A stretch of DNA of 64,000 nucleotides, from the NCBI RefSeq assembly GCF_947503125.1, contig NZ_CANNCR010000021.1, positions 1-64,000 of the forward strand, given 5' to 3'. The notes below the pieces were generated by a model. That model ran no database searches. It was not told the DNA's origin and was given only the letters and a program-made list of their open reading frames with translations. Of the stretch, positions 47,484 to 51,345 are shown in pieces (within the stretch, counting starts at the first letter, position 1; each line of letters starts with the position of its first letter). Position numbers and translations under genes: made by a program. This stretch comes from an uncultured Metabacillus sp. (GTDB lineage: Bacteria > Bacillota > Bacilli > Bacillales > Bacillaceae).

Positions 47484-47749
47484 TTATGAGAGGAGAAAAA
47501 TGGTGTTTCATTCAACAAAAGGGCCAGATGGAACTTAAATTGGATATTTATACAAAAAATAGATATAGTGAAGGGGTATACTTTGGAATAGCACTGCTCT
47601 GAAATGATCTCTTTTGATGCAATAAAAATTACAAAGGGATATACTATTGAATTTAATTTCATTATACTCGAGTTGAGCATTTGTAGGGAAATTCCCAATG
47701 ACTCTGTCACAATCTGCTGAACAGTTACTTAAGGAGTGGAGTGATTATA

Positions 47750-48952
47750 ATGGCACGCGTTTTATTTATTAATGGTGGTGCAGAAGGACATATCAATCCA
47801 ACGATTGGAGTTGTGCAAGAGCTTATTTCGCGTGGAGAAGAGGTCGTGTACTTTACGACAGAAGCTTTTCGAGAACGTATTGAGAAGACAGGAGCTACTG
47901 TACGAACATTTGACGGTGAAAAATTTATCCAAGCTTTTATCTCAGGTGGAAGAAATTATTTAATCGAAAGAATCAATGGTCTTTTGCGTACGGCAGATAT
48001 CATGATACCTAGTGTCCTGGAGCAAATCAAGGGGGAATATTTTGATTATATCATTCATGATTCCATGTTTGGGTGCGGACGTTTACTTGCCCAAATACTT
48101 AAACTTCCGGCCATTAATTCATGTACCTCATTTGCACAGACAGAAGCATTATTTGATAAAATGCTGAAACATCTTTCACAAAATATCCCAACAGAAATTG
48201 AAAAAAAGATAAATGATGATTATCAAAACCTGAAAACAACTATTGAAGAAAAATATGATGTTGAAATCCGGTCTCCCTTTGACGTTTTTTGTAATCCTGC
48301 AGCGCTCACAATTATTTATACAACTAGGGAGTTTCAACCCTCTGGAGAAACATTTGATCAAACATACAAATTTGTAGGTCCATCCATCTCTTTACGATCA
48401 TCGCAAGCAAACTTCGACCTTGCAGCAATCAAGGGAAAAAGCTTAATTTACATTTCTCTGGGTACTGTCTTTAACCAAGCAATTGATTTCTATAAGCTTT
48501 GTTTTAAGGCATTTGGGAGTACTGAACATACCGTTGTCATGTCAATTGGGAATCAAACCCAAATAGTTGAATTGGGAGAGATCCCCTCAAACTTCATTGT
48601 GGAAAATTACGTTCCACAAACCGAAGTACTAAAATACACTAAATTATTTATCACACATGGAGGAATGAACAGTACCAATGAAGGTTTCTATTATGGGGTA
48701 CCGCTAATTGTTATCCCGCAAAGTGCGGATCAGCCGATCATCGCCGGGCAAGTTGCCAAAATCGGAGCAGGTATTCAATTACAAATGCAAAATTTGACGG
48801 CAAATCAATTATATGAAGCTGCAGATCATGTGTTAAACCACCCATCTTTCTATAAAGCTGTTGCAAATATGAGGGAATCCTTTCAAAAATCGGGTGGATA
48901 TCTCCAAGCTGTTGATGAGATTTTCAAATTTAAAAATGAATATGATATCTAA
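47750..48952 (+). CDS. Macrolide-family UDP-glycosyltransferase (GT1, YjiC-like)
   Basis: A soluble GT-B glycosyltransferase of 400 residues in the OleD/Mgt/YjiC group that transfers glucose to macrolides, flavonoids and other hydroxylated small molecules. The N-terminal acceptor domain starts [21 protein letters not shown] with the conserved catalytic-type His. The C-terminal nucleotide-sugar motif is [42 protein letters not shown] precedes ATG 47750. The next gene encodes an ABC-F ribosome protection protein, which makes antibiotic inactivation a reasonable guess, but many Bacillus YjiC-like enzymes act on plant phenolics. Confidence 0.9.
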   Translation: [400 protein letters not shown]

Positions 48953-49171
48953 AGACTAATCGTTCAATAGGCGAGTCCTCTTGTATTGAGCCATAAAAAA
49001 ATTGAACAGTTTTGTTTTTTAGTACTGCCTTTTTGCGATTGATCCGTGAAACTGAATCACAAATCTTAACAATTGTATTATTTTCTTAAAATGGTAGTCG
49101 GAACCCCCTTGAAAAATGAAAGTAAAGGGAATAAAATGGAAGAGAATAATCATGAACGGAGGTGGGGAAGG

Positions 49172-49288
49172 ATGTTAAATCAAGCTGTTTTAGTGCACGG
49201 TTTCTGGACGGAATTTTTATATCTTAACCGTGCAAAATTTGCTGCATCAATTGTTAACGGGATACGTATGCCCTTTTTTAGCAATTGA
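49172..49288 (+). CDS. Putative leader peptide of the ABC-F gene
   Basis: A 38-codon ORF (MLNQAVLVHGFWTEFLYLNR start) with a strong ribosome-binding site (GGAGGTGGGGAAGG, 49158-49171). It lies in the 515-nt leader between the glycosyltransferase and ABC-F genes and is followed by two intrinsic terminators before the ABC-F start. This is the arrangement of antibiotic-responsive attenuators, in which drug-stalled ribosomes on the leader ORF prevent terminator formation. The peptide matches no family I know. Confidence 0.5.
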   Translation: MLNQAVLVHGFWTEFLYLNRAKFAASIVNGIRMPFFSN

Positions 49289-49344
49289 ATAGCAAATCTA
49301 AAACGGTGAAAACATCTCTTAACCCACATTATATCAGGACAGGT

Positions 49345-49376
49345 AAAGGAGAGCTTTTTCATGCTCTCTTTTTTCA
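49345..49376 (+). terminator. First attenuator-like terminator upstream of the ABC-F gene
   Basis: AAAGGAGAGC (49345-49354) pairs with GCTCTCTTTT (49363-49372) across an 8-nt loop, then TT. It starts 56 nt after the leader ORF stop. Confidence 0.75.
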
Positions 49377-49403
49377 TGCCATCATAAGTCCTAATTCTTT
49401 GAG

Positions 49404-49435
49404 CCATGGGAGGTTGTGTCTTCCCATGGTTTTTT
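49404..49435 (+). terminator. Second attenuator-like terminator, directly before the ABC-F ribosome-binding site
   Basis: CCATGGGA (49404-49411) and TCCCATGG (49422-49429) form a perfect 8-bp stem followed by six T residues. The ABC-F ribosome-binding site begins only 17 nt later, so the terminator would block that gene unless antitermination occurs. Confidence 0.85.
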
Positions 49436-49467
49436 GTGTACTTTTTTATTCAAGGAGGAAAATGAAC

Positions 49468-51345
49468 ATGATCGCATGCAGTGTATACCAAGCAGGTAAA
49501 ATGTGTGGTGGGACTTCCATTTTTGAAAATATATCATTTGAAATTCACGAAAAGGATCGGGTTGGTTTAGTCGGGAAAAATGGAAGTGGGAAAACAACGT
49601 TATTTCGTTTACTAGCTGGTGAAGAAAAACCTGAATCGGGCCAAATACATTGGAAAAAAGGAATTGAAATTGGCTATCTTGAGCAAATTCCAAACTTTCC
49701 TGGAGAATCAACGACTAAGGATGTTTTGAAAACAGCTTTTTCAGAACTTTTCCAAATAGAAGAAAAAATGAAGAAACTTGAGGTTGAAATGGGGAAGGAA
49801 ACAAACGGAGAGAAACTACAAAAATTAATCGATGATTATGGGAATCTCCAGGACCATTTTGCATTAAAAGGGGGATATGAAATCGAGGCAAATATTGAGA
49901 AAATTGTTAACGGTCTAAACATTCATGATCTACTTGATAATTTATTTGGCAAATTAAGCGGCGGAGAAAAAACGAAGGTTGGCTTAGCCCTTATGCTTCT
50001 CAAAAAACCAGACTTTTTATTATTGGATGAACCGACCAATCATTTAGATTTAATGGCGGTGGAATGGCTTGGCGGCTTTTTGCAAGATTATAGTGGAACG
50101 GTTGTCGTCATTTCTCATGATCGCTATTTTCTTGATGAGGTTGTAAATAAAATATTGAATTTGGAGGATGGAGAAATTGAATGCTATCCTACAGATTTTT
50201 CTGGCTTTGTGAAAGAAAAAGAGGAACGGCTTCTAAGAGAATTCCAAGCATATGAAGAGCAGCAAAAGAAAATAAAGAAAATGAAGGAAGCTATTAAACG
50301 GCTAAGAGAGTGGGCGAACAGAGCCAATCCACCTAATGAAGGTCTTCATAAACGTGCGAGAAATATGGAAAGAGCATTAGAAAGAATGGAAAAACTGAAT
50401 CGTCCCAAATTAAATCGAAAGAAAATGAATCTTGAGATGGATGCTTCTGATCGAAGTGGAAATGACGTCATTATGCTTACTGGTATATCAAAATGTTTTG
50501 GAGAAAAACCATTGTTTGAAAAAGTCCAAATGCATGTGACTTATCAAGAACGAGTTGCTATTGTCGGAGAGAATGGAACGGGAAAATCAACTTTAATCAA
50601 ACTTATTATGGGGCACCTGCAAGCTGATGGAGGAGAAGTAAGGTTAGGTAGTAACGTAAAGATTGGTTACTTATCTCAAAACATTTTTTCTGATATTGAA
50701 AATGAAACAATCATTGAGGCATTTCGCAATGAGGTCAGGGTGACAGAGGGGGAAGCAAGACATATCTTGGCTAGGTTTTTATTTTATGGCCATATGGTTT
50801 TTCGAAAAGTTTCTCAGCTCAGTGGAGGGGAAAAAATGAGGCTACGCTTAGCCCAACTTATGTATCAAGACATTAATTTGCTCATTTTAGATGAGCCAAC
50901 TAACCATTTAGATATTGAATCTCAAGAAGTTTTAGAAGAAACTCTTGAAGATTATAACGGAACGATATTAGCCGTCTCTCACGATCGTTATTTCCTGAAT
51001 AAGTTATTTGAGAAGATTTATTGGATTGACTCAAATGAAGTTCATTGTTTCAAAGGGAACTACAATTGGGCTAAGGAGAAGATGGTCTTGAGAAAAAGCA
51101 GGACGAGACATGTAACAGTAGAAAAAAATAAAAAGAAAGCACCTGCTTTGAAGAACACGATAGATCAAAAGAATGTCAAGTATGAATACGTGGAAAAGGA
51201 TTTAGAAAGGGTAGAACAAAAGATTTCAGAGTTGGATAGAAGGTTAGAGGAAATTCAAGAATTGGAGCATTTACAACAACTATATAAAGAAAAGGAGGAA
51301 CTTGAGAGGCAGTGGGAAGAACTTTATGAACAACTTGATAAATAA
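49468..51345 (+). CDS. ABC-F ATPase, likely antibiotic ribosome protection protein
   Basis: A 625-residue protein with two ABC domains and no membrane segments. First Walker A GKNGSGKT (~36-43), signature LSGGEKTK (~165), Walker B DFLLLDEPTNHLD; an interdomain linker rich in Lys/Arg (~245-310: RLREWANRANPPNEGLHKRARNMERALERM) that in this family enters the ribosomal E/P site; second Walker A GENGTGKS (~367), LSGGEKMRLRLAQ and LILDEPTNHLD; and a C-terminal coiled coil. It resembles Vga/Lsa/VmlR-type resistance factors against lincosamides, streptogramins or pleuromutilins, but housekeeping ABC-F proteins are alike. The start is ATG 49468, nine bases after AGGAGG; a long upstream frame runs through the terminators and is not real. 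Confidence 0.9.
   Translation: MIACSVYQAGKMCGGTSIFENISFEIHEKDRVGLVGKNGSGKTTLFRLLAGEEKPESGQIHWKKGIEIGYLEQIPNFPGESTTKDVLKTAFSELFQIEEKMKKLEVEMGKETNGEKLQKLIDDYGNLQDHFALKGGYEIEANIEKIVNGLNIHDLLDNLFGKLSGGEKTKVGLALMLLKKPDFLLLDEPTNHLDLMAVEWLGGFLQDYSGTVVVISHDRYFLDEVVNKILNLEDGEIECYPTDFSGFVKEKEERLLREFQAYEEQQKKIKKMKEAIKRLREWANRANPPNEGLHKRARNMERALERMEKLNRPKLNRKKMNLEMDASDRSGNDVIMLTGISKCFGEKPLFEKVQMHVTYQERVAIVGENGTGKSTLIKLIMGHLQADGGEVRLGSNVKIGYLSQNIFSDIENETIIEAFRNEVRVTEGEARHILARFLFYGHMVFRKVSQLSGGEKMRLRLAQLMYQDINLLILDEPTNHLDIESQEVLEETLEDYNGTILAVSHDRYFLNKLFEKIYWIDSNEVHCFKGNYNWAKEKMVLRKSRTRHVTVEKNKKKAPALKNTIDQKNVKYEYVEKDLERVEQKISELDRRLEEIQELEHLQQLYKEKEELERQWEELYEQLDK

Follow-up and report, generated by a model that had tools for sequence, protein, structure and literature searches.

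The window, by which we mean the whole 64,000-nucleotide stretch of Metabacillus DNA analyzed here, carries an ABC-F gene for a protein of 625 amino acids, 3' of a leader open reading frame (ORF) and two terminators (Table 1). The protein scores 494.4 bits against NF000355, a general "ribosomal protection-like ABC-F" model with a cut-off of 380, and reaches none of the curated NCBIfam cut-offs for Vga, Msr, Lsa, OptrA, Sal, CplR, or VgaF. A first-pass annotation of this DNA had named the 38-codon ORF with its strong ribosome-binding site (RBS), the two terminators, and the ABC-F gene, and all are confirmed by coordinates and scans. Directly upstream on the same strand lies a gene for a macrolide-family glycosyltransferase (47741-48952; TIGR01426, 382.7 bits, cut-off 260), which scores under the cut-off of the macrolide-inactivating subfamily. 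The promoter-like site ahead of the leader is at chance level (11 scan matches found in this region versus 11.3 expected). Rfam 15 gave no match in the window, the best sub-threshold score being 16.9 bits against a gathering cut-off of 92.6.

Table 1. Features of the leader region and the ABC-F gene, in window coordinates
Feature	Position	Strand	Remarks
Promoter-like TTGAAA-17-TAAAAT	49109-49137	+	10/12 matches; similar site visible by eye in L001
Leader ribosome-binding site, GGAGGTGGGG	49158-49167	+	outer 5' strand of P1 at 49162-49166
P1 5' strand (leader RBS and start)	49162-49176	+	pairs with 49311-49327; z -8.8
Leader ORF, 38 codons plus stop	49172-49288	+	38-residue peptide, MLNQAVLVHGFWTEFLYLNRAKFAASIVNGIRMPFFSN
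N1 strand	49184-49193	+	pairs with 49298-49307; z -10.3
SL1 arm	49194-49234	+	49194-49202 with 49226-49234; z -4.8
P2 arm	49237-49297	+	49237-49243 with 49291-49297; z -6.1; encloses PH
PH	within P2 arm	+	49249-49257 with 49278-49286; z -8.1
Shared 22-nt module, ACGGGATACGTATGCCCTTTTT	49257-49278	+	inside leader ORF; hairpin 49259-49273, T-run (TTTTTT) 49274-49279
P1 3' strand, candidate antiterminator strand (aSD)	49311-49327	+	covaries with leader RBS/start
Terminator T1	49348-49369	+	-10.6 kcal/mol; covaries, z -10.3
Terminator T2	49401-49432	+	-20.4 kcal/mol; covaries, z -14.9
ABC-F ribosome-binding site, AAGGAGGA	about 49452-49459	+	start codon at 49468
ABC-F gene	49468-51345	+	625 amino acids

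Among the best 80 of 525 relatives in the orthologue search, two loci (L009 and L067) have less than 131 nt of upstream sequence, leaving 78 that could be assessed. The leader is found in 77 of these 78 (76 by pattern and L039 with one change), and sequence comparison indicates that both the ORF and its RBS are conserved across the orthologue loci. In Pontibacillus litoralis (L034:1-549), an apparently decayed leader stands before the ABC-F gene, with the ORF lost and pieces of both strands left. A covariance model built from 30 leaders matches 127 of 398 genomes of the class at E <= 0.01, with about four expected by chance. At 57 of the 69 model matches that we opened (L083-L151), the next ORF is similar to the window ABC-F (36-77% identity); of nine more ABC-F proteins beside model matches that were compared with the general ABC-F model, six reach it at a strict E-value. 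In the genome that contains the window, the leader occurs as a single full copy. The leader appears to belong to a family of ribosome-mediated transcription attenuators conserved in Bacilli, for which we propose a mechanism below.

A simple consensus scan listed T2 and missed T1. With a cut-off of -8 kcal/mol, 100 dinucleotide-preserving shuffles of 49329-49467 contained zero, one, or two terminators in 66, 33, and 1 cases, respectively; the real stretch contains two. At least two terminator-like matches occur in all 78 leaders scanned (the 77 loci and the window; cut-off of -6 kcal/mol). The first match in L045 lies off the usual T1 place, and this leader was excluded from later T1 tests. The first-pass annotation had not recognized the leader peptide and had regarded the pair of tandem terminators as unusual. 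Its ORF, terminators, gene, and stall-type mechanism stand, whereas the peptide proves to be a member of a widely conserved leader family and the doubled terminator is the rule here. The steep or two-step drug response that it had suggested the terminator pair might give finds no support in this analysis.

Positions 49156-49332 fold at -58.2 kcal/mol (z = -5.63), and none of 200 shuffles is as stable. We divided 48 non-redundant leaders into 18 segments and compared pairing energy within and across leaders for 152 segment pairs. Seven pairs covary (Table 1), the next z value being -3.4 and the median 0.04; these z values include relatedness, and the other 145 pairs are a guide to that background. 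Because one leader has an empty T1up segment, the values of T1up pairs are unusable. Five leader helices are predicted to nest as a three-way junction around the ORF, with P1 and N1 as the closing stem and SL1 and P2/PH as the arms, and the closing stem would bury the RBS and start codon of the leader ORF itself. In 30 aligned leaders, paired cells amount to 89.0%, compared with 41-50% in slid versions, over which the structure is favored because it was taken from the window's own fold; shuffles already give 86.5%, since many columns are invariant. Sixteen pairs changed on both sides versus 7.7 in shuffles (0 of 500 as high). RNAalifold on a MAFFT alignment recovered only the PH tip because the RBS/start helix was misaligned, apparently in two registers in two halves of the family; per-sequence duplex tests were used in its place.

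Selection on the ORF was assessed in 30 of the 78 leaders, obtained by making non-redundant the 44 with an Arg codon at codon 20 and aligning them by codon. Over the whole ORF, pN/pS is 0.83. The ratio is 1.23 in codons 2-8, 0.58 in codons 9-10, 0.41 in codons 11-18 (pS 0.57), 0.35 in codons 20-25 (pS 0.24), and 3.42 in codons 28-35 (pS 0.05). The ratios of 1.23 and 3.42 suggest that codons 2-8 and 28-35 are conserved for their nucleotides. In the middle of the peptide, from G-F/Y-W-x-E-F-L-Y to R-A-K-F-A, constraint seems to act on the amino acids, and most plainly so at codons 11-18, which lie within the SL1 loop, where synonymous change looks free. We infer that a drug-dependent stall would fall within codons 9-25, with codons 11-18 the likeliest site.

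Missing from the first-pass account was a 22-nt pause-like element within the ORF, which is the most widely shared part of the leader; codons 29-36 of the ORF read ACGGGATACGTATGCCCTTTTTT. Among 398 Bacilli genomes, 93 contain the pattern ACGGGANNMGTNTGYCCNTTTT and none contains its reversed form. A search across the phylum gives 6 of 398 genomes with the pattern; two, G452 and G618, lie outside the class, and in both the site follows an ErmD-type leader peptide. We sorted 108 distinct module sites by clustering the next ORF of each, and 87 of them precede ABC-F, Erm, RlmA/TlrB-like, Cfr, Mph-like, Mef-like, or FexA-like genes. The ABC-F cluster holds 73 sites, with L236 (a single ABC domain match) left out of the 87; the others are Mef-like (four), RlmA/TlrB-like (four), FexA-like (three), Erm (two), Mph-like (one), and Cfr (one). 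One or two members of each non-ABC-F cluster were tested with NCBIfam. Cut-offs were passed by L141 (FexA), L177 (Cfr), and L147 (Erm), while L153, L149, and L155 have their best match, to Mef, RlmA, and MphL, respectively, under the cut-off. The other 21 sites comprise L236, three in an unnamed MFS cluster (of which L159 has no NCBIfam match), three that are acetyltransferase-like, eight single genes, and six without an ORF by the rule used. Some of them are probably resistance loci too; at L100, the next ORF is an ABC-F by similarity to that of the window. For others, such as L191, L176, L232, and L244, a link to resistance is not obvious.

Several sites show other surroundings. A second module copy in the window's genome (G000:C73:839-860; L082, L160) precedes an MFS transporter gene; the rule used finds no leader ORF there, and a terminator-like hairpin follows the module. 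In NCBIfam, the gene matches an H+ antiporter model and falls below the Mef cut-off. At L229, L230, L231, and L221, the module is enclosed by a long hairpin (TCGTAATG...CATTACGA or similar), a terminator-like hairpin comes next, and the genes behind are acetyltransferase-like or unknown. These hairpins are perhaps another kind of attenuator. At L176, L232, and L244, no leader ORF was seen, and the module adjoins TGTGGATAA repeats, which we take to resemble DnaA boxes.

A leader ORF runs through the module at 67 of the 108 sites, in one frame at 58, a second at five, and the third at four; at 16 further sites, an ErmD-type leader peptide ends 38-42 nt before it. These assignments were made by a script that left 25 sites unassigned and a few, such as L126, ambiguous. 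Its nucleotides are conserved whether they are read in any of the three frames or left untranslated, so the module is predicted to act as RNA or DNA. Counted from the leader start, the module lies 80-91 nt away in the ErmD-type group; elsewhere the span is 55-98 nt, with 67, 82, 73, and 85 as the commonest values. An A at -1 flanks the module at 92 of the 108 sites; A5, G9, U10, U12, and G13 are invariant, but are fixed by the search pattern itself.

This arrangement can be compared with the published geometry of NusG-dependent pauses, described as TTNTTT at -11 to -6 and a hairpin 11-12 nt upstream of the RNA 3' end (PMC12288461). The window module has the same order of hairpin and TTNTTT, and the strict TTNTTT is present at 54 of the 108 sites, the rest having ATTTT or a shorter T-run. 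The module fits a NusG-type RNA polymerase pause site with a predicted 3' end at about 49284. It may resemble the E. coli ops element. We lean, by a modest degree, toward a broader reading in which the module is a portable, sequence-specific nucleic-acid element that holds RNA polymerase back for the leader ribosome. In Bacilli it would have been joined to leader peptides of unrelated kinds and to resistance genes of at least seven unrelated families, and the limited range of distances from start to module would time polymerase against ribosome.

How termination might be relieved is suggested by the strand at 49311-49327, a likely antiterminator that would first pair with the leader's own RBS and start and alternatively with both terminator 5' arms. 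Its mean pairing energy is -8.2 kcal/mol with the T1 5' arm and -9.4 with T2, compared with means of -4.1 and -5.0 for 44 other terminators, of which one and two, respectively, are as good. The T1 arm is purine-rich in 47 of 48 cases, compared with 7 of 39 for other terminators. In the segment tests, the antiterminator pairings showed no covariation (aSD:T1, z = -1.6 and -1.9; aSD:T2, z = -1.4). The U-rich strand of the module pairs with the T1 arm at -10.3 kcal/mol, better than 49311-49327 does. When a ribosome mask was moved along the ORF, T1 and T2 still formed at equilibrium at every position; therefore, the switch must be kinetic.

We consider the following model probable as a whole. RNA polymerase would pause at the module with the RNA 3' end near 49284. 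During the pause, the leader RBS and start would be exposed, because their partner strand is still unmade, and a ribosome could load. Without drug, this ribosome would finish the ORF and depart, and the three-way junction would close; the closed P1 would bury the leader RBS and start and hold 49311-49327, T1 and T2 would form, and transcription would stop. With a ribosome-stalling drug, the ribosome would be held on the leader, possibly with a second queued at the start, keeping P1 open. The freed strand could then pair with the T1 5' arm and afterward with the T2 5' arm and loop, disarming both terminators, and polymerase would read through into the ABC-F gene. The conservation, the seven helices, the constraint on the module's nucleotides, and its wide sharing are seen directly in the sequences compared here; induction by a drug, the pause, the stall, and the switch at T1 are deduced, and the way past T2 is the least certain step. 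Relief of termination by a drug-stalled ribosome, as first proposed for this locus, is the best-supported class of mechanism.

We considered whether T1 alone is regulated, with T2 a constitutive but leaky second terminator whose effect is to reduce basal expression. T2 lacks a covarying antiterminator, and relay pairing of its 5' arm with a T1 3' arm set free is weak (z = -2.15, within background) and was rejected. However, no scanned leader lacks T2, whose hairpin is the more stable of the two, and its arm and loop are complementary to 49311-49327 to an extent that few other terminators equal, making this reading unlikely. A single event would account for the bypass of two terminators if the module recruited NusG or another factor, in the manner of the ops or LoaP hairpins, so that a modified polymerase passed T1 and T2 while the leader ribosome merely acted as a gate. 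LoaP is described as reading through several terminators (PMC12691694), and the module loop is conserved beyond simple pairing at the pattern-fixed positions and at A -1. On the other hand, the module differs from the UNCG hairpin described for LoaP (PMC12691694), and pairing by 49311-49327 gives a simpler route. The window's genome (G000) encodes a single NusG-domain (PF02357) protein and no paralogue, for which reason LoaP itself was dropped, and we judge such processive antitermination improbable. We give least credence to a leader that senses something other than a drug (e.g., the general translation state or amino-acid supply) ahead of a housekeeping ABC-F factor: the ABC-F passes no named resistance family and B. 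subtilis-type ABC-F proteins are described as including housekeeping factors (PMC10201436), but the genes that follow this module elsewhere include Erm, Cfr, RlmA-like, Mph-like, Mef-like, and FexA-like ones.

Ribosome-mediated attenuation, the class proposed here for the window leader, is a known kind of control. Published accounts of leader ORFs, pauses, and attenuation cover tlrB, vmlR, msrD, ermK, and mef (PMC6851288, PMC9226507, PMC10314930, PMC4335068, PMC5418344), with single NusG pauses in the leaders of tlrB (PMC6851288), vmlR (PMC9226507), and msrD (PMC10314930). Like B. subtilis tlrB (yxjB), the window leader has a leader peptide, a pause (predicted here) before an RBS-burying structure, and a terminator; the tlrB pause is described as NusG dependent and as letting the ribosome load (PMC6851288). 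The tlrB peptide is the 9-residue MIIQFIRYR, stalled by tylosin at RYR, and that leader has one terminator and also buries the tlrB RBS (PMC6851288), whereas the window leader has 38 codons and two terminators and would bury its own leader RBS. The vmlR gene of B. subtilis and vmlR2 of N. vireti likewise combine an upstream ORF, a pause hairpin with a T-rich motif, a terminator, and an ABC-F gene (PMC9226507, PMC10201436). Their ORFs are of three codons, MIN or MK[L/Q] (PMC10201436), compared with 38 in the window, and one leader terminator is described for vmlR, compared with two here. Leader peptides and intrinsic terminators are shared with msrD (MsrDL) and mef, and msrDL has a TTNTTT pause site, but the msrD and mef peptides are short (MYLIFM and MTASRLR-type), and the stalled msrD ribosome is described as covering the terminator arm itself (PMC10314930, PMC4335068). 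The Bacillus ermK/ermD leaders also act by transcription attenuation, and the 22-nt module is also present at loci with ErmD-type peptides; their 14-codon peptide, MTHSMRLRFPTLNQ, ends before the module, and its RLR arrest motif is absent from the window peptide.

Of all the parts of the leader, the shared module most deserves testing. In the open-licence literature searched, we found no account of the leader family or of the module as a shared element. Descriptions of inducible resistance mostly treat one gene at a time, with each leader peptide responding to a drug of its own; the shared element hints at a common way of switching on unrelated resistance genes. If this is true, inducible resistances to many ribosome-targeting drugs share one transcription-level timing part that could be studied once. 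The module's sequence would also help to find inducible resistance genes that lack annotation, and its natural variants could be used for testing the sequence needs of a NusG-type pause.

One locus (L191:1339-1522) has the module immediately after an FMN riboswitch aptamer. The gene behind it is presumably ribD. As a general part of FMN leaders the module was rejected, being absent above shuffles in all 24 orientable FMN loci of 30 fetched, with L191 the single case. A NusG pause is known in B. subtilis at an FMN-riboswitch-type leader before ribD (PMC12288461). The fexA leader region with the module is present on 161 plasmid records, mostly from Enterococcus and Staphylococcus, of which one was opened. 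On an Enterococcus hirae plasmid (L252:2522-2683), the annotation lists the ORF of this region as a hypothetical protein.
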